A model generated the notes under the pieces. That model searched no databases and was not told the origin of the DNA. It saw nothing but the letters and a program-made list of their open reading frames with translations. A program made the translations under genes and the position numbers. Positions 10,711 through 61,323 of a stretch of DNA of 64,000 nucleotides are shown here, in pieces (positions within the stretch are counted from its first letter, which is position 1; each line of letters begins with the position of its first letter). Location: the NCBI RefSeq assembly GCF_014529985.1, contig NZ_JACVMU010000001.1, forward strand, positions 434,001-498,000, in the 5' to 3' direction. This DNA comes from Leucobacter sp. cx-42 (GTDB lineage Bacteria; Actinomycetota; Actinomycetes; Actinomycetales; Microbacteriaceae).

Positions 10711-11874
10711 CTAGAACGCTGCGATACCGGTCAGCTCGCGGCCGATGACGAGCTGGTGTACCTCGTCGGTGCCCTCGTAGGTGCGCACCGACTCCAGGTT
10801 CGCCATGTGGCGCATCACGGGGAAGTCGCTCGTGATGCCGTCGCCACCGAGGATGCCACGGCAGGTGCCCGCAATCTTGATCGCTTCACGCACGTTGTTC
10901 AGCTTGCCGACCGAGATCTGGCCGTACGAGAGGTTGCCTGCGTCCTTGAGGCGGCCGAGGTGCAGCGCGAGCAGCAGACCCTTTTCGTACTCAACGAACA
11001 TGTCTGCGAGCTGCGCCTGGATGATCTGCTTCGAGCCGATCGGTGCTCCGAAGACCTGGCGGGTCTGCGAGCGCTCAACAGCGACCTCGAGGCACGAGCG
11101 TGCTGCGCCCATGACGCCCCAAGCGATGCCGTAGCGTGCCTCGTTCAGGCACTTGAACGGCGACGAGAGACCCTTCGAGCCGGGGAGGATCGCGTCGAGC
11201 GGCAGGCGCACGTCGGTGAGCTCGATCTCGGTCTGCAGCGAGGCACGCATCGAGAGCTTGTTCTCAATCGCGGTTGCCTTGAAGCCGGGGGTCTCGGTGG
11301 GCACGACAAAGCCGCGCACGATGCCCTCTTCGTCCTTTGCCCAAATGACACCGACCTTGGCGATGGTTGCGAGGCCGATCCAACGCTTCTTGCCATTGAG
11401 TACCCACTCGTCGCCGTCACGGCGTGCGGTGGTGAGCATAGTGTTGGGGTCCGATCCGCCCTGCGGCTCGGTGAGGCCGAAGAAGCCGACAGCCTCGCCG
11501 CGACCCATTGCGGGCAGCCACTGCTGCTTCTGCTCTTCAGAACCGAACTTGTAGATCGCGCCCATTGCGAGCGAACCCTGCACCGAAAGCGCCGTGCGGA
11601 AGCCCGAGTCAACCGCCTCAAACTCCATCGCTACGAGGCCGTACGCGACCGACGATGCACCCTTCAGGCCGTAGCCATCCATGTACATACCGAAGGCACC
11701 GAATTCGCCAACCTCGGGCAGCAGCTCGACGGGAAGACGGCGGTCCTCAAAGGCCTGGTCGATGATCGGCTTGATGCGGGTCTGCGCGAATTCGCGCGCC
11801 TTCATCTGCCACTCACGCTCCTCTTCGGTCACGAAGTCGGAAACGTTGAACAGCTGGTCAATCGTGGTGGTCAT
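10711..11874 (-). CDS. gcdH: Glutaryl-CoA dehydrogenase
   Basis: This 387-aa FAD enzyme oxidatively decarboxylates glutaryl-CoA to crotonyl-CoA. Within the acyl-CoA dehydrogenase superfamily it carries GcdH-specific stretches, notably CLNEARYGIAWGVMGAA (about 242-258) and LGRLKDAGNLSYGQ. The catalytic base is Glu367 in TYEGTD. The ATG at 11874 is preceded by AAAGGAG; an upstream ATG at 12075 would add unrelated residues. A CaiB/BaiF CoA-transferase lies 70 bp upstream on the same strand, so glutarate can be activated and oxidised by one operon. Confidence 0.9.
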   Translation of the reverse strand: MTTTIDQLFNVSDFVTEEEREWQMKAREFAQTRIKPIIDQAFEDRRLPVELLPEVGEFGAFGMYMDGYGLKGASSVAYGLVAMEFEAVDSGFRTALSVQGSLAMGAIYKFGSEEQKQQWLPAMGRGEAVGFFGLTEPQGGSDPNTMLTTARRDGDEWVLNGKKRWIGLATIAKVGVIWAKDEEGIVRGFVVPTETPGFKATAIENKLSMRASLQTEIELTDVRLPLDAILPGSKGLSSPFKCLNEARYGIAWGVMGAARSCLEVAVERSQTRQVFGAPIGSKQIIQAQLADMFVEYEKGLLLALHLGRLKDAGNLSYGQISVGKLNNVREAIKIAGTCRGILGGDGITSDFPVMRHMANLESVRTYEGTDEVHQLVIGRELTGIAAF

Positions 11875-11944
11875 GATGCTCCTTTGGCTCACTACCGTGT
11901 GAAATGCAGGTGATGTTAGGGAAGAACGGGGCGCGGATCGGTGC

Positions 11945-13138
11945 CTAGCGCGGCAGCCACTCCGCGTTCTGGTGCTCGCCAACGCGCGGGGGCGGGGTGC
12001 CGTAGCGCGGGGGCGTTGCAGAGAACGAGATTGGGGTGGCAACTGAGCGGAGGGTTCGTTCGACACCCTCGTCATCCAGTGCGTGCGTCTCGGCTACGGG
12101 TTCGAGGCCGAGCGAGTCTGCGAGTTCCAGCGCCTGCGCGATCGTGTTCACGCGGCCTGCGGGAATAACCGCGGCGGTGAATTCTTCGATCCACTCCGCT
12201 GCGGGACGGGTCTTCAGGCGGACCTCGAGCGCCTCGCGGAGGCTGACTCGGTTCGCCACGCGATCCACGTTCGTTGCGTAGCGCGGATCAGTCGCCAGCT
12301 CAGGAATACCGAGCACGTCACACAGCCGGGCAAACTGGCCGTCGGTGCCCACTGCGAGCGCGATGGCCTGATCCGCCGCTGCGAAGGTCTCGTAGGGCGA
12401 AATCGACGGGTGGGCGTTGCCCATACGACCGGGCGAGACGCCCGTCTCGAGGGTCGAAGAAGTCTGGTTCGCGAGCGCCGAAAGCAGCGATCCGAGCAGG
12501 GTGACCTTGACGTGCTGGCCGCGGCCGGTCATGTCGGTGCCGGGGGTCTCACGTGCACGGAGTGCGGCCTGGATACCGATGACCGAGTTCAGACCGGTGA
12601 GAATGTCGACGAGAGCGACACCGACCTTGGTGGGCTCGCCACCGTCGGCGTCGGCGCGACCGGTGATGCTCATGAGTCCGCCGACGGCCTGGACGAGCAA
12701 GTCATAACCGGGAAGGTTTTTGCCCTCAGCATCGCCGAAGCCCGAGATCGAGCAGTACACGACACCGGGGTTCTCGGCTGCGACCTCGTCGTAGCTCAGG
12801 CCAAACTTGGCCATCGTGCCCGGCTTAAAGTTCTCGATGACCACGTCAGCGGTGCGCGCGAGTTCGGCAGCGCGTGCCTTACCCTCTTCCGAGCGAAGAT
12901 CGCAGACGACCGAGCGCTTACCGCGGTTCACGCCTGCAAAGTAGGTGCTCTGGCCGATTGCGTTCGTCGGCGGGTTCCACTGCCGAGTGCCGTCGCCCTC
13001 TGGACTTTCGATCTTGATGACGTCTGCGCCGAAATCGGCAAGAATCATCGTGGCGTGCGGACCCGCGAGAACTCGCGAGAAGTCGGCTACTCGAATGCCG
13101 CTGAGCGGCCCCTGGGATGCATGTACGTCGTCGGTCAC
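11945..13138 (-). CDS. CaiB/BaiF (class III) CoA-transferase, probably for glutarate
   Basis: This 397-aa enzyme moves CoA between acyl-CoA donors and carboxylic acids. Family features are the N-terminal LSGIRVADFSRVLAGPHATMILADFGADVIKIE and the catalytic Asp146 in GYDLLVQA. It is co-directional with glutaryl-CoA dehydrogenase, 70 bp ahead of it, which matches the pairing of human SUGCT with GCDH. A succinyl-CoA:glutarate transferase role is therefore inferred from context. The opposite-strand PucR-type regulator starts 83 bp away. Confidence 0.88.
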   Translation of the reverse strand: MTDDVHASQGPLSGIRVADFSRVLAGPHATMILADFGADVIKIESPEGDGTRQWNPPTNAIGQSTYFAGVNRGKRSVVCDLRSEEGKARAAELARTADVVIENFKPGTMAKFGLSYDEVAAENPGVVYCSISGFGDAEGKNLPGYDLLVQAVGGLMSITGRADADGGEPTKVGVALVDILTGLNSVIGIQAALRARETPGTDMTGRGQHVKVTLLGSLLSALANQTSSTLETGVSPGRMGNAHPSISPYETFAAADQAIALAVGTDGQFARLCDVLGIPELATDPRYATNVDRVANRVSLREALEVRLKTRPAAEWIEEFTAAVIPAGRVNTIAQALELADSLGLEPVAETHALDDEGVERTLRSVATPISFSATPPRYGTPPPRVGEHQNAEWLPR

Positions 13139-13181
13139 ATCTCCAGTGTACGTTTGGCCTCGACGTCATTGTGTGACAAAG

Positions 13182-13210
13182 TGCACAACTTGTTTCGTAT
13201 CAACTGTGCA
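13182..13210. promoter_or_regulatory. Inverted half-sites in the CoA-transferase/PucR promoter region
   Basis: TGCACA (13182-13187) and TGTGCA (13205-13210) form an inverted pair separated by 17 bp between two divergent genes. It is a candidate operator for the PucR-type regulator; the arms are short. Confidence 0.35.
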
Positions 13211-13221
13211 ATGATGGCAGC

Positions 13222-14769
13222 ATGGCTACACTGTCGCAGCTCCTCGCGATTCCCAGTTTGGGGCTTCGCCTCATCCAGGCTGGCCGCCGCGATCCTGAGC
13301 TCACCTGGGGATCCGTGACCGAGCTCCTCAACCTCTCGGAGTATCTCGAGGGTGGCGAGATCATTATGACGACGGGCCTCGCGCTCGATGGTGATGATCC
13401 GCGCTGGCGTGACTTCGTTGCGAGCCTCAGCCGAGCGCAGGTCGCCGCGATTGGCTTCGGCATTGGCGTGAATCACGACCAGGTACCGGCGCAACTCGTG
13501 CAGGCAGCAAGCACCTACCAGGTGGCCCTCTTCGAGATTGCCCTTCCGACGCCGTTCATCGCGATCAGTAAGGCGATCGCCGAGCTGTTGCGCACTGACG
13601 AGCTTCGCGAGACGCGCAATGCGCTCCGCATCCAGGAGCGGCTCCTCGACAGTGCCCGCAGTGAGCAAGAGCCGGCGGCCGTGCTCGCGAGTATCGCGCA
13701 GGCAACCGGGCGCCAGCTTGGCGTCGTGAGCAATGACGGCAGTGTGCTCGCAGCCACCGGCGGATTCGCAGCCGCACAAACCGCAGCCCACGGAGCAGCC
13801 CCAGGCTCGGTGCAGGCGATGGAGCAGGTGCCCCTCAACTCCGCCGGATCGCTCCAGCTCCACATCTCAGGCGGCACGCCGCTCTCCCCCGAGGGCCGCT
13901 CGGTCATCGCGGCGGGCGCGATCGTCCTCGGGCTCGGCATCCGTGGCAGCAGCGCTGCCGAGGCGCGCGAACGTCAGCAGTGGGCACGGCTCACCGAGGG
14001 CCTCCTCACCGGGACCCAGGCACCCGCCGCGCTATCAGTACTGTTCCCCTCGCACCCGCTGCCGGAGACCGTGCGCGCGGTTGCCGTGCAGGGATCCGCC
14101 GAAGATCTCGTCGAGTGGCGTTCACGGTCGCGCTCGGGATTCGAGCGCCTCATCACTTCCGCGTTGCCACATATTTCCGCGCCCGGTATCGCACAGGCCT
14201 GGCAGCTCGTGTCTGACACGCCAGCTGCCATCGATGCCGCGGTCTCTGCCGCGCACGCGCATGGCCTCGACGTCGTACTCGGGCGGCCCGTTGCCGCTGA
14301 GGATGCGCCGCTGAGTCGGCGATCCGCGCTCGCCAAGCTCCCGACGCTGTCGACCACCGCGCCCCTCTACATCGCCCCGCGCGTGCCAGAGACCATCTGG
14401 GCGGATCGCACCTCCCCCGTCCTCGAAACCCTCATGACGCTGCCGGGTAGCGCCGCGGACGGCGGGGTCGCTGGCGGCTACCCCGCGCCAAGCGCCGAAC
14501 TTGCCGCGCGCGTGCTTGGTCCACTCGCGCGTGAATCAACGGAGCTCACGGTGGCGGATCGCGAGACGCTGCGAGTCACCCTCCGCGCCGTGTTCGAGGC
14601 CGACGGTCAGCGCGGCCCGGCTGCCACAGCTCTCGGCATTCACCGAAACACGCTGCGTGACCGCATGCAGCGGATCGAGCGACTCATCGGGCGCTCACTC
14701 TCGGAACCCGACGACCGAGCCGAGATCTGGATCGCGCTGCGCCTCGAGGAGCAGACCTTTGCGCAGTGA
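13222..14769 (+). CDS. PucR family transcriptional regulator
   Basis: This 515-aa regulator has an N-terminal PucR domain (about residues 3-115, TLSQLLAIPSLGLRLIQAG), a middle GGDEF-like CdaR-type region and a C-terminal helix-turn-helix (about 460-510, RGPAATALGIHRNTLRDRMQRIERL). PucR-type proteins usually activate catabolic genes next to them. It is divergent from the CoA-transferase/gcdH pair, so it is probably the glutarate-pathway regulator. The ATG at 13222 has no strong ribosome site. Confidence 0.9.
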   Translation: MATLSQLLAIPSLGLRLIQAGRRDPELTWGSVTELLNLSEYLEGGEIIMTTGLALDGDDPRWRDFVASLSRAQVAAIGFGIGVNHDQVPAQLVQAASTYQVALFEIALPTPFIAISKAIAELLRTDELRETRNALRIQERLLDSARSEQEPAAVLASIAQATGRQLGVVSNDGSVLAATGGFAAAQTAAHGAAPGSVQAMEQVPLNSAGSLQLHISGGTPLSPEGRSVIAAGAIVLGLGIRGSSAAEARERQQWARLTEGLLTGTQAPAALSVLFPSHPLPETVRAVAVQGSAEDLVEWRSRSRSGFERLITSALPHISAPGIAQAWQLVSDTPAAIDAAVSAAHAHGLDVVLGRPVAAEDAPLSRRSALAKLPTLSTTAPLYIAPRVPETIWADRTSPVLETLMTLPGSAADGGVAGGYPAPSAELAARVLGPLARESTELTVADRETLRVTLRAVFEADGQRGPAATALGIHRNTLRDRMQRIERLIGRSLSEPDDRAEIWIALRLEEQTFAQ

Positions 14770-14809
14770 GGTGATGTGCCGGGCAATTGCGTGGCCCGTC
14801 CCGAGGATT

Positions 14810-15151
14810 TTACTCAAGCGTCATTCGCACCGTGGCTCGCCATTCGAGGCCGCTCGAAAGGTCGGTCTGCAACAACCCATGCCCGTCTGAGCCGAGGCAG
14901 GAGGCCGCTGGGTAGTACCTGCTTAATAGATCACCACACGCAGCAATGCAGAGAAGCAGGGCTTGCATTGAATCGGCTCCAAAGATTCTTTGACGTACAA
15001 AGAGTTTCTCGTCGGGGGCCCATACCTCGTAGACAAATTCCGCGTACTCGGAGTCCTCATCCGGCGCATGGTGCGATCCGTTCACGCACAAGATCACTAT
15101 CTGCACTGGCCCGTCAGGAGTATCAACGGTACGACTAGCTACGGTCTCCAT
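14810..15151 (-). CDS. Hypothetical protein, DUF6968-like
   Basis: This is a small cytoplasmic protein of about 113 aa with the pattern METVASRTVDTPDGPVQIVI near its start and FGADSMQALLLCIAACGDLL in the middle, which resembles DUF6968-type proteins of unknown function. The start is uncertain: no good ribosome site is seen, and an in-frame TTG at 15220 would add 23 residues. It lies downstream of, and on the same strand as, the 222-aa membrane-anchored protein, 257 bp away. The assignment is by eye and could be wrong. Confidence 0.5.
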   Translation of the reverse strand: METVASRTVDTPDGPVQIVILCVNGSHHAPDEDSEYAEFVYEVWAPDEKLFVRQRIFGADSMQALLLCIAACGDLLSRYYPAASCLGSDGHGLLQTDLSSGLEWRATVRMTLE

Positions 15152-15408
15152 CACGTGAGTTTGCACGACATGATGTTGTATCGCAAGCGTTGACAGGTGA
15201 TGGCCGTCAGCACCCTTCAACAGCGGCCGAACGCTGTTCGATGCAAGAAACCGGACAGGATGTCCGAGAAGCCACTCAGAACGCGCTGTTCAGAGTTTCC
15301 TTCAAGTCTGCCACCGGCCAAACCCGTTCAAACACCCCGTTTTGTGTGACGCGCCCCTTCTTGACGGGGTTGAGTCAGCAGGCGGAGGTGAACTCAAAAG
15401 TGTGCCGT

Positions 15409-16077
15409 CTAGTACAACAAGAACTGCGCGGAAGCCTTGCTCGTGGTCCCAACGACCGCAGTGCGCAGGTGGTAGGTCGCGCCGTCGCCAATCACGTCGT
15501 CGCGCGTGATGTCACACGTTTCGGGATCTGAACGGGTGCGGTCCCAGACAATGGGTTCGGTTTCGAGCGGCTTGCCTGGCACCAGGATGATCTGGCGCTT
15601 GGTCTGATCAGTCTGGCAATCGGTCGAACGCCAGACGATATCGTCACCACTGGAGACTTCAAACGTCATCGCGGCGGTGCCGAGGTCAATGATGCACTCA
15701 ACTTCGCTCGTGTTCTCAACGGTCAGTGAGAGCTCCGGAAGCTCGCCAGGATCGTACGAGTCGTGGTCGACCACCGCGGTCACCATGACGCGCGCCTGAG
15801 CGCACGCATCTGGCTCGCCTTCCTTCTTCTCCGTCGCGGACTTCTGCTTCTCCTGCGCGGTGATGTCGGCTGGCACATCGACCTTCTGCGCGCCAGAACC
15901 GGAGCCGCTGGAATCAGAACCGCCGAACACGCCACTCAACGACATGATGAGCAGCACGATGAGCGCAATGACGATTAGCAGGCCGCCGAACACGACGATC
16001 CGCCGACGACGATAGACACTCTTGTCCAGGCCACCGGTCGGGGCCTGTCCTGGGGTCTGTCGCGCATTGCCTGGCAT
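15409..16077 (-). CDS. Membrane-anchored hypothetical protein
   Basis: This 222-aa protein has a short Pro/Gly-rich cytoplasmic N-terminus, a basic RRRR stop, one membrane helix (about 27-48) and a Ser/Gly linker followed by an extracytoplasmic domain. The domain reads as a beta-sandwich (LPELSLTVENTSEVECIIDLG) with three Cys residues. The family appears to be restricted to actinobacteria; no function is assigned. It lies 18 bp downstream of the acetyltransferase stop and could share its transcript. Confidence 0.75.
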   Translation of the reverse strand: MPGNARQTPGQAPTGGLDKSVYRRRRIVVFGGLLIVIALIVLLIMSLSGVFGGSDSSGSGSGAQKVDVPADITAQEKQKSATEKKEGEPDACAQARVMVTAVVDHDSYDPGELPELSLTVENTSEVECIIDLGTAAMTFEVSSGDDIVWRSTDCQTDQTKRQIILVPGKPLETEPIVWDRTRSDPETCDITRDDVIGDGATYHLRTAVVGTTSKASAQFLLY

Positions 16078-53207: not shown

Positions 53208-54122
53208 CTACGAACGGTCGCGATCGCGCTCGTCCTCGAGGTACTGCACCGCAAGCACCTCAGTCACGGGGCGATCATGCTGACGCGGATCGGGTTCATC
53301 AGCGCCACCGGCTGTCACGCGCGCGTGAGACTGCCGCATGCGACGTTCCACGAGGCTCGCGCACGCAGACAGGATGATGCAGAGCACGATGTAGATGCCG
53401 CCGATCACGAATGCCGACTGCAGCAACGGACGTCCAGGCGAGCTACTCATGAGTTTCGCCAAGTACAGCAGCTCGGGATACGTGATGATGAAGCCGAGCG
53501 CGGTGTCTTTCATCGTGACGACCAGCTGCGCAACAAGCACCGGGAGCATGGCGCGGATCGCCTGCGGCAGGAGAATCAACCGCATCACGCCGTTCTTGCG
53601 CAGACCAATTGAATACCCAGCCTCGGCTTGCCCCTTTGGAAGCGCTTCAACACCAGCACGGATGGTCTCTGCAATCACCGATCCGTTGTAGACCATGAGT
53701 GCGAGCACGACCGCCCAGTACGGGTCCATACGGATGCCGACGCTCGGCAGGCCGTAGTAGAGCAGCATCATCATGACAAGCACGGGCACGGCTCGGCAGA
53801 CCTCAGTGATGACGAGCACTGGCCGCCGCACCCAGGCGTGGTCTGAGAGCCTGCCGATCGCGAGCACAAACCCGAAGACCATACTCAGCACAGCTGCTGC
53901 GGCGAACGCGGCAAGCGTCTTCCCGAGCGCCTGCGCGATCTGCACCCACACCGTGGTGTACGTGAAGACCTGCCATTTCGCGGCAGAGAACTGACCGGAC
54001 AGTGCGAAGCGATAGACGATGGCGCCGATGATCGCCACGACCACCACGACCGTGACCACCGCGAGCACGCGGTTGCGGCGCACCGCTTTCGGGCCAGGGA
54101 CGTCGTACAAGATTGCGGTCAT
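53208..54122 (-). CDS. Amino-acid (glutamate-type) ABC transporter permease, GluD position
   Basis: This 304-aa permease of the polar amino-acid family has about five helices, the permease loop LPKGQAEAGYSIGLRKNGVMRLILLPQA near residue 165 and a hydrophilic C-terminal tail. It overlaps the other permease by four bases (ATGA). With the ATPase, lipoprotein and partner permease, in the order ATPase-lipoprotein-permease-permease, it matches the Corynebacterium gluABCD layout. Confidence 0.9.
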   Translation of the reverse strand: MTAILYDVPGPKAVRRNRVLAVVTVVVVVAIIGAIVYRFALSGQFSAAKWQVFTYTTVWVQIAQALGKTLAAFAAAAVLSMVFGFVLAIGRLSDHAWVRRPVLVITEVCRAVPVLVMMMLLYYGLPSVGIRMDPYWAVVLALMVYNGSVIAETIRAGVEALPKGQAEAGYSIGLRKNGVMRLILLPQAIRAMLPVLVAQLVVTMKDTALGFIITYPELLYLAKLMSSSPGRPLLQSAFVIGGIYIVLCIILSACASLVERRMRQSHARVTAGGADEPDPRQHDRPVTEVLAVQYLEDERDRDRS

Positions 54123-54775
54123 CGCGCGATCCTCCACTTCTTCTCAAGTCGGTTTTGCATGAAGCTCAAGATGAACACGAGCACCACGAACACGGCGGCA
54201 ACCCACAGGAGGACTTCCATGGGGCTGCCCGGGCGATCCGCCGCATCGTTGATCGTTGCGCGCAACGCGGCAAGTTCTGCGACCGAGAATCCGGCCGCGA
54301 TCGTCGTGTTCTTCAGCAGCGCGATAAACACGCTCATCATTGGCGGCACAACCGAGCGGAACGCTTGCGGAAGAACCACGAGCGTCATGACCTGACCGAA
54401 CGGGAGGCCAATGGCGCGTGCGGCTTCGGCCTGCCCCACCGGCACCGTCGAGATGCCCGCGCGCAGCACCTCTGCGACGTAGGTGGCCGTGTACATGCCG
54501 ATCGCGATGACGCACAACACGATCGTGCTGAGCTTGGGAAGTCCGAGCGCGGGATACCCGAGCACGAAGAAGAAAAACACCAGGGTCAGCGGCGTATTTC
54601 GAATGATGTTGACGTACGCAGCGCCGACCCCACGGGCAATCGGTACCGGCGATACCCGCATGGCTCCGATGACGCTTCCGAGGATGAGCGCGATGATGCC
54701 ACCACCAAAGAACACAATGAGGGTGTTCTTCGTTGCGGTACCCCAGAGATCGAGGTTGCCGAAGATGACGTCCAT
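54119..54775 (-). CDS. Amino-acid (glutamate-type) ABC transporter permease, GluC position
   Basis: This 218-aa permease has about five helices and the loop VPVGQAEAARAIGLPFGQVMTLVVLPQA near residue 130. AGAGGACG precedes the ATG at 54775. A perfect 12-bp hairpin lies between the lipoprotein gene and this one. It forms the membrane channel with the overlapping GluD-type permease. Confidence 0.9.
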   Translation of the reverse strand: MDVIFGNLDLWGTATKNTLIVFFGGGIIALILGSVIGAMRVSPVPIARGVGAAYVNIIRNTPLTLVFFFFVLGYPALGLPKLSTIVLCVIAIGMYTATYVAEVLRAGISTVPVGQAEAARAIGLPFGQVMTLVVLPQAFRSVVPPMMSVFIALLKNTTIAAGFSVAELAALRATINDAADRPGSPMEVLLWVAAVFVVLVFILSFMQNRLEKKWRIAR

Positions 54776-54799
54776 GGGTCGTCCTCTCTCAAACAGGTC

Positions 54800-54828
54800 G
54801 AGTGTGGGGCGAGGCCCGCCCCACACTC
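54800..54828 (-). promoter_or_regulatory. Intercistronic hairpin between lipoprotein and permease genes
   Basis: GAGTGTGGGGCG (54800-54811) and CGCCCCACACTC (54817-54828) form a perfect 12-bp stem with a 5-nt loop and no T-run, a position typical for raising binding-protein levels over permease levels. Confidence 0.65.
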
Positions 54829-54853
54829 AGGGACAGTAAGAAGCCGGTGCTGA

Positions 54854-55759
54854 CTAGTAGGCGTCAACCTTGGGCTGGTCGACGACAATGCCGGAGGAGC
54901 CAAGGTTGTTGTCGAAGATTGCTTTCCAGACGTCGCCGCCGTCGGTCAGTACGGTGTTGATCCACGAGCGAAGTGCGTCATCGCCCTTCGGGAGGCCAAC
55001 GCCGTAGAGCTCCTGGGTGAAGAGACCGCCCGTAACCTTGATGTCATCTGGGTACTGTGCTGCATACCCAATGAGGATGGCCTGGTCAGTGGTGACCGCG
55101 TCAACCTGGCCATTGATGAGGTCTTCCACACACGCCGAGTACAGGTCGTACTCCTGGGTCTTAATCCCGGGGAAGTTCGCCTTGATGTTCTGAATCGGAG
55201 TCGACCCGGTCGCCGAACACACGGTCTTGCCCTCGAGTTCCTCGATCTTGGTGACCTCGTCGGCGTCCTGTGCTACGAGGAGCCCCTGGCCAGTCTCGAA
55301 GTACGGGCCAGCAAAGTCGATGTCTTGCTTTCGCTTGTCGTTGATCGAGTACGTGCCGACGTAGTAGTCAATATCGCCGTTCTTGATCGACTGCTCACGG
55401 TTCACCGAGGCGATCGCTTTGAACTCGATCTGGTCCTCGTCGAAACCGAGCGACGCAGCGATCCAACGCGCAGTATCGACGTCAAATCCCGTGCGCTCCT
55501 GCGTAGTCACGTCGAGGTAGCCGAGACCAGGCTGATCTTCCTTCACGCCGACAATGACGCCACCGCGCTTGACCATCGCGTCATAGGTCGGACTGCCCGT
55601 GAGTGACACGTCAGTCGCGACCTCCCACGGTGTACTGCTGGTGCTCGAGCCGTCGGTCGCTGGCTCCTTCGCACCATCGGTCGGGCTGCCGCTTGCGCAG
55701 CCGGTGAGCGCGAGCGCGGCGACAATGCCGAGCCCTGCAATGAGACGTGTACGTCGCAT
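54854..55759 (-). CDS. Glutamate-type ABC transporter substrate-binding lipoprotein
   Basis: This 301-aa lipoprotein of SBP family 3 has the lipobox LTGC (Cys21) and the pattern GVIVGVKEDQPGLGYLDVTTQERTGFDVDTARWIA, which is the GluB/GlnH type. It binds acidic or polar amino acids. AAAGGAAG precedes the ATG at 55759. It is transcribed after the ATPase gene, with a 53-bp gap. Confidence 0.9.
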   Translation of the reverse strand: MRRTRLIAGLGIVAALALTGCASGSPTDGAKEPATDGSSTSSTPWEVATDVSLTGSPTYDAMVKRGGVIVGVKEDQPGLGYLDVTTQERTGFDVDTARWIAASLGFDEDQIEFKAIASVNREQSIKNGDIDYYVGTYSINDKRKQDIDFAGPYFETGQGLLVAQDADEVTKIEELEGKTVCSATGSTPIQNIKANFPGIKTQEYDLYSACVEDLINGQVDAVTTDQAILIGYAAQYPDDIKVTGGLFTQELYGVGLPKGDDALRSWINTVLTDGGDVWKAIFDNNLGSSGIVVDQPKVDAY

Positions 55760-55812
55760 GGTGTCTTCCTTTCGTGGTGTGCGCAGGCCGTGGGGTGGCC
55801 AGCACACGGGGC

Positions 55813-56559
55813 TTAGTGGGTGATGAGTTTGGAGAGAAAGTCTTTGGCTCGGTCGCTCTGCGGGTTCAGGAAGAACTCGTCTGGCGTCGCCTGCTCGATA
55901 ATGCGGCCGTCTGCCATGAACACCACGCGATCGGCTGCCTTGCGCGCGAAGCCCATCTCGTGTGTGACCACGATCATCGTCATGCCCTGCTGCGCGAGCT
56001 GCACCATGACATCGAGCACCTCGGTGATCATCTCCGGATCAAGCGCAGACGTCGGCTCATCGAAGAGCATGACCTTTGGCTGCATCGCAAGCGCTCGAGC
56101 AATTGCCACGCGCTGCTGCTGCCCGCCGGAGAGCTGTGCAGGGAGCTTCGCCGCCTGCTTATCAACGCCAACGCGGGCAAGGAGTTCCATCGCCTCGCGC
56201 TCGGCGTCTGCTTGCTTCATGCCTCGGACGCGGATCGGCCCCAGCGTCACATTCTCCAGAATCGTGAGGTGGGCGAACAGGTTGAACGACTGAAACACCA
56301 TGCCAACATCGGCGCGCAGCTGGGCAAGCCCACGCCCCTCTGCCGGGAGTTCTGTGCCGTCGATGCGGATCGATCCGCTCGTGATCGTCTCCAGCCGATT
56401 AATCGTGCGGCACAGGGTCGACTTGCCGGAGCCAGACGGCCCAACGATCACGACAACCTCGCCGGCGTGCACCGACAAGTTCACATCAGTCAGTGCCTGA
56501 AACTCGCCATAGTGCTTCTGCACGTTTACTACGACGACAAGCGGTTCTTCCGCGCTCAT
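55813..56559 (-). CDS. gluA: Glutamate-type ABC transporter ATP-binding protein
   Basis: This 248-aa ATPase has Walker [10 protein letters not shown] (40-48), the signature LSGGQQQR, Walker [13 protein letters not shown] and the switch His (VVTHEMGFA); it is closest in pattern to GluA/GlnQ. GGAGG precedes the ATG. It is the first gene of the gluABCD-like operon, whose 275-bp promoter region carries TTGAG repeats and inverted repeats. Confidence 0.9.
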
Positions 56560-56622
56560 CTTGCCTCCACCGTTGGATTCGTTCGTCCGCAGCGGGTCAC
56601 GCTGGAGACGTTGGTCATTCGA

Positions 56623-56698
56623 CGGTTCAACGCAGAGGCACCGCGAGACACTCTGGGTCTCGCGCTCTCAGGGGGTCGATCGCTTCTTCGTTGAACCG
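56623..56698 (-). promoter_or_regulatory. Nested inverted repeats in the glu leader
   Basis: CGGTTCAACG (56623-56632) is the complement of CGTTGAACCG (56689-56698). Between them CGCGAGAC (56642-56649) pairs perfectly with GTCTCGCG (56657-56664). Both stems would form in the leader of the glu operon. No known riboswitch pattern was recognised. Confidence 0.5.
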
Positions 56699-56743
56699 GT
56701 CAGACCCTCACGTTAGGGGTGGTTACTCCTCCGATTCAGTGCT

Positions 56744-56782
56744 TTGAGCTGATCTTGAGGAAGGCCTTGAGCATTACTTGAG
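56744..56782. promoter_or_regulatory. Four TTGAG direct repeats in the glu promoter region
   Basis: TTGAG occurs at 56744, 56755, 56767 and 56778, giving spacings of 11, 12 and 11 bp, one helical turn each. Tandem repeats at this period are the usual binding form of OmpR/PhoB-family regulators, and such a regulator is encoded directly upstream. Confidence 0.6.
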
Positions 56783-56834
56783 GTTGGCTCGCTGAGGGGT
56801 GAGATTGATGATCAATTTGACGGGTTCGCAGAGG

Positions 56835-57839
56835 TTAACGGCGCTGCGATCTGAAGTAGTCTGCGGCTCCCGGGTGCAACGGCATGGGGTCGGTGAAGAT
56901 AGCCTCACGGGTATCGAGCAGTGCTGCGACGGGTGCCTTGCGCGCGATCGCAGCCCGTTCCGCGAACAGGGTCTCAGTCACCTCTCGAATCTCGCCGCGG
57001 TCTGCATCAGCCGCCGTAACCAGGTAGTTCGGAATCGTCATGGTGCGTGTCTGATCTTCGATTCCGTAGGTGCCTCGTGGGAGCTCAGATAGCCCGTAGA
57101 CGTCTGCGTGATCCGCGTTCAACTGGTCAAGAATCTCGGGCGTCACTGGCAAAATGCGGATCGGAAACTCGGCTGCGAGGTCAGCGACACCCGGGGTCGG
57201 AATAGCGCCGACCCAGAAGAACGCATCGATCTCGCCGGCTCGCAGTGCCTCCGCAGCGGGCTGCGTGCCCAGGGTGACCCAGCGCGGTGCGGTGTCGGTG
57301 TCGATGTCGGTGTCGGCCTCTGTCTCGGCCTCGGCTCCGATGTCACGCTCGCTCATGCCGGCGGCTTCGAGGATGCGATGCGCGATCACCTGCACGCCTG
57401 AGCCAGGTGAACCGAGGGAAATACGAGCATCTGCGAGGTCGGCGAGCGTCACAAAACTCGAGTCTTTGGCCACCACGATGTGCACGTACTCGTCATACAG
57501 CCGCGCGACCGCGGCGAGTTCGAGCGGCTCAGCAAAATCACCCTCGCCAGCCAACGCATCTGCAACGGTATCCCCCTGCGCGAAACCAAGGAGTGCCTCT
57601 CCCCGACCGATGCGCTGCAGGTTGTCGACCGAGCCATCAGTCTCAACCAGCGTCATCTCACGATCGGTGCGCGCCGAGAGCTCGTTCGCCAACGCCGTGC
57701 CATACGCGTGGTAGACACCGCCGGGATTGCCGCCAGCAATGACGCCGGGGGCATGCGGAGCGGCGCACGCGGTGAACAACAATAGCCCCACGCACAGCAC
57801 CGCGGCCGTGGTCAGTCTGCGTACCCAGTGTGTGATCAT
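56835..57839 (-). CDS. TAXI family solute-binding lipoprotein in a two-component operon
   Basis: This 334-aa lipoprotein (lipobox LFTAC, Cys25) has the TAXI pattern VIAGGNPGGVYHAYGTALANEL near residues 33-52 and DAFFWVGAIPTPGV near 210-225. TAXI proteins normally work with TRAP permeases; a Thermus member was crystallised with glutamate. No TRAP permease is nearby. The gene overlaps the histidine kinase by four bases, so it is probably a ligand receptor for the kinase. An acidic Asp/Glu/Thr insert lies near residues 168-184. Confidence 0.88.
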   Translation of the reverse strand: MITHWVRRLTTAAVLCVGLLLFTACAAPHAPGVIAGGNPGGVYHAYGTALANELSARTDREMTLVETDGSVDNLQRIGRGEALLGFAQGDTVADALAGEGDFAEPLELAAVARLYDEYVHIVVAKDSSFVTLADLADARISLGSPGSGVQVIAHRILEAAGMSERDIGAEAETEADTDIDTDTAPRWVTLGTQPAAEALRAGEIDAFFWVGAIPTPGVADLAAEFPIRILPVTPEILDQLNADHADVYGLSELPRGTYGIEDQTRTMTIPNYLVTAADADRGEIREVTETLFAERAAIARKAPVAALLDTREAIFTDPMPLHPGAADYFRSQRR

Positions 57840-59215
57840 TCGCCGTCACCTTCCGAAGTGAACCGCAGTTCCACGTGCAACCCTCCGCCCTCCGGCGAGC
57901 TCAAACACAGCGTGCCGCTCGCGCTTTCCAGCAGCTGATTCGCGATTGACAGGCCGAGTCCTGAGCCAGCGATGTTCTGATCACGGGTGTTCCGCCAGAA
58001 GCGGGTCTTTGCCCGCTCAAGGTCAGCGGGTTCGAGCCCGGGGCCGGAATCGCGGACGCTGATCCGCGCCCCATCATCGGTACGTTCTGCCCGCACGTCG
58101 ATGCGACCGCCGCGCGGCGAGAACTTCACCGCATTGTCGAGCACTGCGTCGAGCGCGCTTTCGATCACCGTACGGTCGGCAATAAGCATGAGCCCAGGCT
58201 CTGCAAACGCCGAGACTTTGATGAGCCGCTGGCTTGCGACAGCGCGCCAGGCATGGGCGCGGCTGTGGGCGAGCTCGCCGAGATCGACCAGCAAGCACGT
58301 TGGTTCAGACTGCGCAGTGCGGGCCAGCCGCAGCAGCGTGTCCAAGATTTGTGTCATTCGTTTGCCGTCTTCACGGGTATTTTCGATGTCGGATGCCCAT
58401 TCTCCACCGAGACCCGTGGCCAAGACTTCCACCCGCATCAGGAGCGCACCGAGCGGATTTCGTAGCTCGTGCGATGCGTTCAACACGAACTCCTGCTGCC
58501 GGGTGACCACCTGGTCGATCTCGGCAGCCATCGTGTTAAAGAGCTTGATTTGCGACTGGAGTTCCGGCGGCCCTGTGGTGTCCGCGATACGGGCCTCCGT
58601 CTCGCCCCTGGCAAAGGCCTGCATCGCCTCGTCCACTCGCCGCAACGGAGCAAGCACCCACCGAGAAAGCTGAAAAATGACCAGGGTTGCGAGACCGACA
58701 GTCACGAGCGAAATAGCCCCAAGCAGCAGCCACTGCCCCCAAATACCGCGGTTCGTCTGATCCACGCTTGCCCCTATGGAGATGGCGCCGACCACGAACC
58801 CATCGTTCACGATGGGTTCTACAATCGTCGCCGGTTGACGGGACCAGGGCAGCGGGCCGACGGCGACCTCACCGCGTCTGCCAGACAGCGCGAGGCCGAC
58901 GGCGGCCTGCAACTCGGCGGAAATCTCCGCACGGCGTTCAGTCGTCGTTGCCCAGGCTTCGCCAGCCTGATCGAACACCGTAATCTCGGCGTCGTACAGG
59001 TCACCGTACCGCCGCATATCTGCTTCGAGCGCAGCTGGGTTCTGGTCTGCGAGCGCCTGCCGAGCTACGGACAGAAAGTAGTGCGCATCGCCAAGCTGCT
59101 GGTTGGAAAGCTGTTGTTCTGCCGTGCGGGCAAGGCTCCACCCGTATGCGCCACCGAGGGCCATCAACACGACGATCAGCGGCGTGAGAAAGGCGACAAC
59201 AAATCGCTTTCGCAT
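57836..59215 (-). CDS. Sensor histidine kinase
   Basis: This 459-aa membrane kinase has helix 1 (about 6-25), an extracytoplasmic sensor of about 130 residues, helix 2 (about 162-182), HAMP (about 183-236), HisKA with His249 in NASHELRNPLG and an ATPase domain with Asn361 (DNAVKFSP), DSGPG and GSGLGLS. It starts 3 bp after the response-regulator gene and overlaps the TAXI lipoprotein gene, so three products are made together. Confidence 0.93.
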   Translation of the reverse strand: MRKRFVVAFLTPLIVVLMALGGAYGWSLARTAEQQLSNQQLGDAHYFLSVARQALADQNPAALEADMRRYGDLYDAEITVFDQAGEAWATTTERRAEISAELQAAVGLALSGRRGEVAVGPLPWSRQPATIVEPIVNDGFVVGAISIGASVDQTNRGIWGQWLLLGAISLVTVGLATLVIFQLSRWVLAPLRRVDEAMQAFARGETEARIADTTGPPELQSQIKLFNTMAAEIDQVVTRQQEFVLNASHELRNPLGALLMRVEVLATGLGGEWASDIENTREDGKRMTQILDTLLRLARTAQSEPTCLLVDLGELAHSRAHAWRAVASQRLIKVSAFAEPGLMLIADRTVIESALDAVLDNAVKFSPRGGRIDVRAERTDDGARISVRDSGPGLEPADLERAKTRFWRNTRDQNIAGSGLGLSIANQLLESASGTLCLSSPEGGGLHVELRFTSEGDGE

Positions 59216-59218
59216 TGA

Positions 59219-59890
59219 TCAACTCACCGCAAGCCGATACCCAAGCCCCCGCACGGTATCGATGAGTGATTCGCGGTCGAGTTTGCGGCGGATCGCCCCG
59301 ACGTGCACCTCAAGCGATCGGTTGAACCCCGTCCAGTCGGTGCCCCACACCTCCCGGATGATGCGATCTCTCGGAACCGCAACCCCCGGATACCGCGCGA
59401 GAACCTCCAATATCTCAAACTCTTTCGGCGTGAGTTCAACCGATACCGCAGCCACCGTGGCGAGCCTGTTGGTGATGTCGATATAGACGTCGTGCACGTC
59501 GATCACCAAGCCGAGTTCACCCGCGACCGGCACCATACGAGACCGTCGTGTCACCGCTTCGATGCGCGCAACGAGCTCACGCACGTCGTACGGCTTCACT
59601 ACGAAATCATCCGCACCAGCATGCAACCCTCGGATGCGTTCCTCAACCTGGCTTCGTGCGGTCGCGATGATGATGGGGACGCCGGAGAATGCGCGGATCC
59701 GCCGACATACATCAAGGCCGTCGATATCGGGCAGCCCCAGATCAAGGATCACCGCTGCTGTTTCTGGCGAAACTGCGTCAATCGCAGACGCACCGTCTGC
59801 AGCTTGCACCGTGCTGTAGCCAGCCTTCCCGATGAAGGCGCTCAGCGCGTCAGACACCCGTTCGTCATCTTCGACAACCAGAATTTCCAC
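59219..59890 (-). CDS. OmpR-family response regulator
   Basis: This 223-aa protein has a receiver domain with the acidic pair EDD (7-9), phosphorylated Asp50 in ILDLGLPD and Lys99 in VVKPYD, and a winged-helix output domain (about 130-223, ELTPKEFEILEVLARYPGVAVPRDRIIREVWG). The start is GTG at 59890. It heads the regulator-kinase-TAXI operon. Tandem TTGAG repeats in front of gluA are its most likely target. Confidence 0.93.
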   Translation of the reverse strand: MEILVVEDDERVSDALSAFIGKAGYSTVQAADGASAIDAVSPETAAVILDLGLPDIDGLDVCRRIRAFSGVPIIIATARSQVEERIRGLHAGADDFVVKPYDVRELVARIEAVTRRSRMVPVAGELGLVIDVHDVYIDITNRLATVAAVSVELTPKEFEILEVLARYPGVAVPRDRIIREVWGTDWTGFNRSLEVHVGAIRRKLDRESLIDTVRGLGYRLAVS

Positions 59891-60015
59891 CGGAAGTACA
59901 CCTCTCTGTTGTGCCCCCTTGACCCATCACTTTAGAGGGGAACAGAGCACGTCGAAAGCTGTCACGCACGACTTGTGATCCTTCACACACCGAAATGAGC
60001 TTGTCTGAGGAAACA

Positions 60016-60053
60016 CTAGCGCCCTCCCCACAAAGTTGTGGGGAGGGCGCTAG
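60016..60053 (-). terminator. Hairpin terminator after ilvA
   Basis: CTAGCGCCCTCCCCACAA (60016-60033) and its exact complement (60036-60053) form an 18-bp stem around AG. On the minus strand it is followed by TGTTTCC. It separates ilvA from the two-component operon. Confidence 0.85.
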
Positions 60054-60078
60054 CTCGCCGTGCGGGCGAGTTTGTCAG

Positions 60079-61323
60079 CTAGTAACGCTCGCCTACACGC
60101 ACCTCGTAGCCTTCGGCGCGAAGCGCCTCAACTACCTCGACGCCGTGCTCTGAGCCACGGGTCTCAATGTGCAGCTCGAGCTCAACCTCACTGATGGGGA
60201 GCTCGGTCGCGTGACGAGTGTGCAGCACCTCGACAACGTTTGCGTTGTGCTCAGCCACGATCGACGCGGTGCGCACGAGCTGGCCAGGTACATCAGGGAG
60301 CAGGATGCGGAGCTTGAGGTAACGCTTCGACGCAGCCAGGCCGTGACCGATCACACGCTGCAGCAGCAGCGGATCAATGTTGCCACCCGAGAGGATGGTC
60401 GCAGTCTTGCCTGCAACCTTGATCTTGCCTGCGAGCATCGCAGCAACGCCAGCCGCACCCGCGGGTTCAACCACGAGCTTGGTGCGCTCGATGAGCATGA
60501 CAATGGCGCGTGCGATGTCATCATCGCTCACGGTCACCACTTCATCAACGAAGTCGCGGATCAGATCAAAGTTCAGCGTGCCAGGGCGCGCGACAGCGAT
60601 GCCGTCAGCGATGGTGGGACGTGTCTGGATCGTCACGGGTTCGCCTGCCTCGAGCGAAACCGGGTAGGGCGCAGCGTTTTCAGCCTGCACACCAATGACC
60701 CGGATCGTGCGGCCGTGCTCGGCAGCCCACTTCTTTGCAGCGACTGCAATGCCCGCGATGAGGCCACCGCCACCGATCGGCACGACAAAGTTCTCGATGT
60801 CGGGCTCGACCTCGAGCATCTCGAGTGCAATCGTGCCCTGGCCCTCGACGACAGCGGGGTCATCGAACGGCGGGATGAAGATCGCACCCTGCTCCTTGAC
60901 GAACGCCTGCGCTGCCGCATTGGTCGCGTCAAAGGTCTGGCCGACAAGCTCAACGTTTGCGCCGTAGCCACGGGTTGCCTGCAGCTTCGGCAGTGCAACA
61001 CCAAGCGGCATGAAAATGGTCGCCTTGATGCCGAGCTCGCGCGCCGCATACGCCACGCCCTGCGCATGGTTACCAGCCGACGCGGCGACGACGCCGCGTG
61101 CACGCTCTTCTGCCGTCAGCTGTGACAGCCGGTTGTACGCACCGCGAAGCTTGTATGCGCCGGTGCGCTGCAGGTTTTCACACTTGAGGAACACATTCGG
61201 CACCTCGAGAATGTCGGCGAGGTAGCGCGATGATTCGAGCGGCGTCTTGCGGGTTACCTGGTGCACCACACCGAGCGTCCGTTCGAAGTCGGCGAGCTCG
61301 GGGGTGCCGTTCTGCCAGGTCAT
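60079..61323 (-). CDS. ilvA: Threonine ammonia-lyase
   Basis: This 414-aa PLP enzyme deaminates threonine to 2-oxobutyrate. The PLP Lys58 sits in GAYKLRGA, the PLP-phosphate loop is IGGGGLIAG, and one C-terminal ACT-like domain is present (about 330-414). The single short regulatory domain resembles the catabolic/short type rather than E. coli IlvA. It overlaps the AI-2E family gene by four bases and is followed by a strong hairpin. Confidence 0.93.
   Translation of the reverse strand: MTWQNGTPELADFERTLGVVHQVTRKTPLESSRYLADILEVPNVFLKCENLQRTGAYKLRGAYNRLSQLTAEERARGVVAASAGNHAQGVAYAARELGIKATIFMPLGVALPKLQATRGYGANVELVGQTFDATNAAAQAFVKEQGAIFIPPFDDPAVVEGQGTIALEMLEVEPDIENFVVPIGGGGLIAGIAVAAKKWAAEHGRTIRVIGVQAENAAPYPVSLEAGEPVTIQTRPTIADGIAVARPGTLNFDLIRDFVDEVVTVSDDDIARAIVMLIERTKLVVEPAGAAGVAAMLAGKIKVAGKTATILSGGNIDPLLLQRVIGHGLAASKRYLKLRILLPDVPGQLVRTASIVAEHNANVVEVLHTRHATELPISEVELELHIETRGSEHGVEVVEALRAEGYEVRVGERY

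Follow-up and report, generated by a model that had tools for sequence, protein, structure and literature searches.

The 64,000-nucleotide stretch of the Leucobacter sp. cx-42 genome considered here (contig NZ_JACVMU010000001.1, positions 434,001 to 498,000; hereafter the window) carries a compact operon for an OmpR-type response regulator, a histidine kinase and a TAXI solute-binding lipoprotein, followed by the four genes of a glutamate-type ABC transporter, gluABCD. We consider it probable that the glutamate-loaded TAXI lipoprotein is the receptor of the kinase and that the regulator turns on gluABCD, making this a GluR-GluK system with a dedicated third part. A sequence-only reading of the window had already proposed both that the TAXI protein serves the kinase as its ligand receptor and that the regulator controls glutamate-type uptake. 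Control by the regulator is familiar from GluR-GluK of Streptomyces coelicolor, and the receptor role draws its support from gene linkage, co-occurrence across genomes, a TAXI tree and the residues of the binding pocket.

The layout which that reading described, comprising the operon, a set of repeats and a missing TRAP permease, is confirmed. The regulator and kinase genes are separated by 3 bp (59216-59218), the kinase and TAXI genes overlap by 4 bp, and the order on the minus strand is regulator, kinase, TAXI, then gluA, gluB, gluC and gluD. Coordinates and Pfam and TIGR profiles bear out the tight three-gene operon, and the downstream transporter is made up of one ABC_tran, one SBP_bac_3 and two BPD_transp_1 proteins (Table 1). 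An OmpR-type regulator and a histidine kinase adjoining gluABCD is the gene context of GluR-GluK. The TAXI protein scores well above the cut-offs of both its profiles (NMT1_3, 184.8 bits against 27; TIGR02122 TRAP_TAXI, 222 bits against 84.35). The closest named relative found, Leucobacter sp. cx-328, has a 93% identical TAXI and an identical gene order; its regulator is 96% identical. Regulators with 58-75% identity occur in a further 23 loci of the Microbacteriaceae group, and those in 50 loci of the set L054-L112 are 43-50% identical.

No permease of the TAXI-TRAP type, DctM or DctQM, was found: a search of the entire 2.77-Mb window genome (completeness value 100) for DctM (PF06808, E <= 0.001) gave no match, which upholds the reported absence at the locus and reveals no TRAP permease elsewhere in the genome. 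There is one TAXI protein match in the whole genome; a second NMT1_3 match, at another place and with 23.7 bits, falls under the cut-off. No gltS gene lies beside the TAXI gene among the eight proteins scanned from 53208 to 61323, the remaining genome not having been searched for GltS.

The regulatory half of this system has a known counterpart. In S. coelicolor, GluR-GluK (SCO5778-5779) regulates the adjacent, divergent gluABCD genes (SCO5774-5777), GluR works through a motif that precedes gluA, and the system seems to be widespread in Actinobacteria, according to two reviews (PMC9739842, PMC10345050). The likeness extends to an OmpR-type regulator and kinase beside gluABCD and, putatively, to a regulator motif upstream of gluA; the Leucobacter locus differs in being colinear, with TAXI inside the same operon. 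Streptomyces loci in our set run TAXI, then kinase and regulator on the opposite strand, then gluABCD, an order that fits the S. coelicolor locus numbers. SCO5780, just beyond gluK, would be the TAXI gene, judging from these Streptomyces loci. A literature search turned up no paper naming SCO5780. The word TAXI is absent from the GluR-GluK review PMC9739842 and from the examined part of PMC10345050, and no link between a TAXI protein and a kinase was found in a search that covered mainly titles and the openings of abstracts, with subscription papers mostly outside its scope. Control of gluABCD by the regulator pair is thus known, and TAXI as a fixed third part is the new element.

There are precedents both for kinases assisted by binding proteins (BctC-BctE, DctB-DctS) and for a TAXI protein working without TRAP (TAXI-GltS). 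BctC-BctE of Bordetella pertussis is alike in that a binding protein is needed for the kinase to respond to its ligand and uptake genes are controlled; BctC, however, is a TctC-type subunit of the regulated transporter itself, whereas the TAXI does not belong to the ABC transporter encoded next to it. In DctB-DctS-DctA of Bacillus subtilis a co-receptor, a kinase and a transporter sense jointly, but the ligands are C4-dicarboxylates and DctB is not a TAXI. B. subtilis DctB is of the DctP type. The TAXI-GltS pair proposed in B. pertussis is likewise a TAXI without TRAP, but with GltS as its transport partner, and that report (PMC12344293) nowhere uses the terms histidine kinase, two-component or sensor.

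The linkage of TAXI and kinase extends far beyond Leucobacter. Among 79 loci from the genome_contigs collection, picked by similarity to the window TAXI, the kinase is present in 71, and kinase together with gluA (at least 60% identity) in 62. Five of the eight kinase-less loci, all Streptomyces, have a 73-76% identical kinase some 10-26 kb away, on a contig of matching length. In two more (L051, L059) the TAXI gene sits at a contig end, and in the L051 genome a kinase match runs off the end of another contig. The last, L113, is a remote, kinase-less match in an Anaerolineales genome. Where a regulator match is also present (61 TAXI-kinase-gluA loci), 17 have TAXI and kinase on the same strand with glu downstream, and in the other 44 TAXI is convergent and glu divergent. 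Because both the colinear and the convergent/divergent forms occur, the TAXI-kinase-regulator trio appears to survive a rearrangement.

Since these 79 loci had been preselected by TAXI similarity, a less selected sample of the phylum was added, comprising 396 genomes with a TAXI in 43, the window genome included. From 52 other TAXI places and one extra Microbacteriaceae region, 51 TAXI frames were scored for partners within 3.5 kb; two regions with DctM (L223, L226) had no TAXI frame above the score limit and are uncounted. The 51 frames divide into 26 with TRAP only, 15 with kinase only, 2 with both and 8 with neither, and one of these last (L207) has a kinase 5.7 kb away. Over all 147 TAXI frames, which were not deduplicated, the figures are 27, 98, 4 and 18, respectively, so that kinase-linked TAXIs of relatives, too, are mostly without a TRAP permease close by (98 kinase only, 4 both), one of the checks suggested by the sequence-only reading. 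Two loci with TAXI-TRAP genes and a kinase and regulator nearby (L178, L190) raise the possibility of two-component control of a TAXI-TRAP system. Four others of the phylum sample (L193, L198, L199, L200) have TAXI-TRAP genes beside an amino-acid-type ABC transporter and no kinase match.

In loci that have kinase and TAXI but lack gluABCD, the adjacent gene often codes for an MHS symporter, an AnsP-like amino-acid permease or an Nramp protein. The best matches of the MHS symporter, PRK10406 (which we take to be a KgtP relative) and TIGR00883, are both under cut-off, as is the AnsP-like permease for AnsP. In one Amycolatopsis locus (L108) a gene for NAD-dependent glutamate dehydrogenase (11086-15669) adjoins the trio regulator in place of a transporter. 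Because the same trio adjoins MHS, AnsP-like or Nramp transporters, the kinase and regulator appear to be the constant partners of TAXI, not any one transporter. The genes adjacent to the trio in L052, L109 and L203 include no telling neighbour, and L109 and L203 were dropped as tests of cargo, having no informative transporter alongside.

The two genes also co-occur across genomes. In the family to which the window belongs, 17 of 299 genomes have a TAXI match, and the same 8 have both a TAXI at 50-100% identity and a kinase at 46-100%. The next kinase matches in the family are at 29-31% identity, nine of them in genomes without a TAXI match; these nine were considered as cases of kinase without TAXI, but the drop in similarity, from 46% (417 bits) to 31% (176 bits), leads us to regard them as other kinases. 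The nine other TAXI-bearing family genomes have distant TAXIs, eight with a distant kinase-regulator pair and one (G193) with a TRAP permease. A second sample consisted of 91 genomes of one genus, taken as Streptomyces on the basis that 11 of 12 stretches share 161-2535 31-mers with named Streptomyces loci or loci of the Amycolatopsis set, the best partners all being Streptomyces. TAXI is present in all 91 of these genomes and the kinase in 90, the kinase-less one being an assembly in 1770 contigs with a completeness of 82%. Three of the kinase matches contain a single in-frame TGA, and the TAXI is split into two pieces in two genomes. The distance between kinase and TAXI starts in the 90 genomes is less than 2.5 kb in 70, 2.5-30 kb in 15 and 1.49 Mb in one, and in 4 the two genes are on different contigs.

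The TAXI proteins themselves also fall into two groups. Thinning 148 TAXI rows at 72% identity gave a 79-row tree, and dropping eight long-branch or odd rows (3 TRAP, 5 unlinked) gave a 71-row tree. In the latter, one branch with support of 100/99 splits the 45 kinase-linked rows from the 12 TRAP-linked rows, the kinase side also holding 7 unlinked rows and one row linked to both. Changes between two-component and TRAP linkage number two in the 79-row tree, where the long-branched TRAP row L222 falls among kinase-linked rows, and one in the 71-row tree. That the receptor came from a transporter protein is presumably the direction of the change, on a tree whose root was not inferred.

Glutamate is suggested as the ligand by the structure and pocket of the TAXI protein. 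Its predicted structure has a mean predicted local distance difference test (pLDDT) score of 90.3, and the nearest solved folds are TAXI proteins, several of them glutamate-bound (1us4, 8u79, 9ibo, 8s4j), so that model fold and profile scores agree on the family. The glutamate TAXIs VcGluP and TtGluBP (PDB 8s4j, 1us4) share the fold and key pocket residues, as set out in PMC11574862; VcGluP differs in serving a TRAP permease, no DctM gene being found in the window genome. That source gives the VcGluP contacts with glutamate, two of which lower affinity 213-fold (Y45A) and 990-fold (Q93A) when changed. Mapped by alignment with a chain offset of 28, which is our own reading, the contacts correspond to Y43, S70, Q88, E117, G148, W209 (aromatic) and V210 of the window protein. 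All seven positions are invariant in 26 glu-linked rows of the Microbacteriaceae group, including three metagenome-assembled genomes of Actinomycetota, and we infer that glutamate is the TAXI ligand in Leucobacter. The acidic pocket residue of VcGluP contacts the amino group of the ligand (PMC11574862). The position of E117 is occupied by N (10) or S (2) in 12 MHS-linked rows and by N in 2 Nramp-linked rows, while in 27 TRAP-linked rows both this position and that of Q88 vary (Q in 11, E in 11). Across nonredundant kinase-linked rows, whether residue 117 is acidic agrees in 42 of 42 with whether the linked transporter is presumed to carry amino acids, through one change on the tree; we predict from the alignment that an acidic residue there marks amino-acid cargo, and we dropped the correlation as statistical support, there being one tree change and one independent pair.

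The TAXI lipobox, LFTAC, is slightly off consensus. In the alignment Microbacteriaceae relatives have a cysteine at the matching place, several with a more usual lipobox, and the Streptomyces TAXIs lack the cysteine and have an N-terminal hydrophobic stretch in its place, so that the protein looks membrane-tethered with either device. The window TAXI also has an acidic low-complexity insert, EAETEADTDIDTDT, at residues ~165-185 (window ~57285-57347). Of the other aligned relatives Leucobacter cx-328 alone has it, in a form shorter by two residues; the insert resembles a coding microsatellite, and model confidence is low there. In genome G074 the TAXI gene (L025, 9237-10158) is split over two overlapping frames, from either a real frameshift or an assembly error.

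A candidate site for the regulator lies between TAXI and gluA. The four TTGAG repeats noted from the sequence alone are present on the plus strand at 56744, 56755, 56767 and 56778, with a spacing of 11-12-11 bp, and read CTCAA in the direction of gluABCD transcription. A three-copy pattern matches twice in the window, with the two matches overlapping, and not once in 100 shuffles. The 2.77-Mb genome has exact CTCAA-N6-CTCAA at 4 places, two of which belong to this locus, and the backwards pattern at 3; a single pair is therefore not rare in the genome, and two pairs in register are. A scan allowing one mismatch was uninformative (55 and 54 matches against 58 and 54 in the backwards control). 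For the relatives a relaxed pair, CTMAR-N6-CTMAR, and the strict pair CTCAA-N6-CTCAA were used, with expectations from dinucleotide shuffling. Of the 26 colinear loci, the window included, all 26 have the relaxed pair in the stretch that separates TAXI from gluA, against 0.095 expected, and all 26 have the strict form there too; the repeats are thus kept in the examined relatives with the colinear operon, a further suggested check. In divergent loci the region from regulator to gluA holds the relaxed pair in 34 of 44 cases (0.045 expected) and never the strict form. The remaining 10, in genera of Pseudonocardiales, have a related site, CCTAAGTNTTNCTCAA, recognised post hoc and without shuffle control. 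Chance as the source of the repeats is ruled out by the shuffles, the genome pattern counts and the conservation, and we propose that they form a putative regulator site upstream of gluA. Beyond the second half-site, TGAC or TGAA occupies the -35-like position in 13 of the 26 colinear loci and in 30 of the 34 Streptomyces-type divergent loci; half-sites followed by such an element would be the layout of an activator beside a -35 element. At the window locus a CTGAAT element adjoins the last repeat, and the position of a TAACGT element fits a TA-rich consensus stretch in relatives (Table 1).

In the proposed mechanism, the TAXI lipoprotein, anchored outside the cell membrane, would bind glutamate, and the closed, loaded form would dock on the sensor domain of the kinase and alter its activity. 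The kinase would then phosphorylate the OmpR-type regulator, which would bind the tandem CTCAAG repeats immediately before the gluA promoter and increase gluABCD transcription. Glutamate would be taken up by the ABC transporter with its own GluB, TAXI acting as receptor and not as a transport subunit. The sign of the response, like the contact between TAXI and kinase, is inferred.

Several observations weigh against this reading. The pocket is not uniform, for in 53 other glu-linked rows Q88 is replaced by A (42) or T (11) and E117 by D (53). The trio is patchy in the window's family, as the 17 TAXI-bearing genomes of 299 illustrate, and some TRAP-permease loci (L178, L190, L064) also have a nearby kinase. 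The TGAC-like element is in place in just half of the colinear loci, and a strict sigma-70 scan before gluA found no promoter. In a co-divergence set of 46 nonredundant loci out of 91, TAXI and the sensor domain have a partial correlation, conditional on kinase and regulator, of 0.305 (reached by 0 of 2000 permutations), against 0.375 for TAXI with the regulator given the other two; with the latter higher, co-divergence was given no weight as support. TAXI might also do something else, for example supply a transporter, as has been proposed for a TAXI working with GltS, not TRAP, in B. pertussis (PMC12344293). Finally, GluK itself is reported to bind glutamate and not glutamine, by biolayer interferometry (Li et al. 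2017, as cited in the review PMC9739842), and TAXI may therefore be unnecessary or secondary.

This last result, the chief point against the receptor reading, speaks for an alternative in which GluK senses glutamate directly by its extracellular domain and TAXI is dispensable, serving only to raise local glutamate or tune sensitivity. The kinase model (AlphaFold2; mean pLDDT 77.8, predicted template modelling score 0.39) has a sensor domain at about residues 32-158 between two membrane helices; a binding protein is thus encoded with a kinase bearing an extracytoplasmic domain, whose outside position is deduced from the model. Helices and strands are mixed in the 120-130 modelled residues of the sensor domain, an arrangement in which a small ligand could fit, and a weak match to sCache_3_2 (E 0.043) falls under the cut-off; in a comparison of the kinase model with the PDB, the 50 matches listed are mainly kinase cores or long multidomain alignments, with nothing clear for the sensor domain. 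The domain could itself bind glutamate, which is compatible with a receptor role for TAXI. Against a dispensable TAXI stand its presence in 8 of 8 family genomes with a close kinase relative, its retention throughout the Streptomyces-like genomes, even where 1.49 Mb separates it from the kinase in one genome, its conserved pocket, and the occurrence of the trio beside differing transporters. We hold direct sensing without TAXI to be unlikely.

Some accessory extracytoplasmic proteins, such as CpxP and CseA, restrain their kinases, and TAXI might equally be an inhibitor that keeps the kinase off when ligand-free and releases it on binding glutamate. The genomic evidence for an inhibitor is identical to that for a receptor, and it is silent on sign; we think an inhibitor decidedly unlikely. 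That TAXI is an extra transport binding protein, passing glutamate on to the ABC transporter or to some other permease, with no more than shared regulation behind its link to the kinase, accords with its place near transporter genes and with the TAXI-GltS proposal, but is very unlikely given that gluABCD has its own GluB, that the neighbouring transporter varies (ABC, MHS, APC, Nramp) while kinase and regulator stay, and that in divergent loci TAXI lies outside the transporter operon with no box placed before it by the pattern scan.

Taking the receptor reading of TAXI more broadly, we lean toward a history in which one TAXI subfamily abandoned transport a single time, early in Actinomycetota, to serve as dedicated receptor for a family of sensor kinases. 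The module would since have been joined to glutamate ABC transporters, MHS acid symporters, amino-acid permeases and Nramp proteins, and the pocket residue that meets the ligand amino group would be acidic if amino acids are the expected cargo of the linked transporter and neutral if they are not. The signal is unknown for many sensor kinases. If TAXIs are receptors, the missing sensing part of GluR-GluK adjoins it, Streptomyces GluK would belong to a two-protein glutamate receptor in a kinase family that looks near-universal in that genus, and linked transporter and pocket residues together would predict ligands for many related kinases. A gene annotated as a TRAP transporter subunit may then be unrelated to transport.

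Table 1. Genes and proposed control elements of the locus, in window coordinates.
Feature	Position	Strand	Basis or detail
OmpR-family response regulator, GluR-like	59219-59890	minus	Response_reg + Trans_reg_C
Histidine kinase, GluK-like	57836-59215	minus	HAMP, HisKA (H249), HATPase_c (Pfam; alignment)
TAXI solute-binding lipoprotein, proposed kinase receptor	56835-57839	minus	TIGR02122 + NMT1_3
Four CTCAA direct repeats, proposed GluR box	56744-56782	minus	starts 56782, 56771, 56759, 56748
-35-like element CTGAAT, proposed	56734-56739	minus	adjoins last repeat
-10-like element TAACGT, proposed	56710-56715	minus	position fits TA-rich consensus stretch in relatives
gluA, ABC ATPase	55813-56559	minus	ABC_tran; top NCBIfam match GlnQ, under GlnQ cut-off
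gluB, family-3 binding protein of ABC transporter	54854-55807	minus	SBP_bac_3
gluC, permease	54119-54826	minus	BPD_transp_1
gluD, permease	53208-54137	minus	BPD_transp_1

Across the 95 loci L019-L113 the relaxed pair pattern stands mainly before gluA. Matches elsewhere occur in L025, L035, L042, L053, L056, L057, L063, L108 and L113; in L057 gluA, if present, is outside the stretch examined. In Leucobacter cx-328 (L035, 5818) a weaker pair, CTCAG-N6-CTCAA, lies 132 bp before the regulator and is a possible autoregulation site. An autoregulation box before the separate TAXI gene of divergent loci was also considered, and the pattern scan placed none there. Two Amycolatopsis loci in which no gluA was matched (L053, 11003-11018; L056, 11038-11053) have a CTCAAG pair before the AnsP-like amino-acid permease. 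Nramp-linked trios (L030, 7163-7307; L031, 12322-12414) have another direct repeat, CTCTTA / TAAGAG with a period of 11, in the gap between regulator and transporter, and CCTTA-type pairs can be picked out by eye in some MHS-linked loci.

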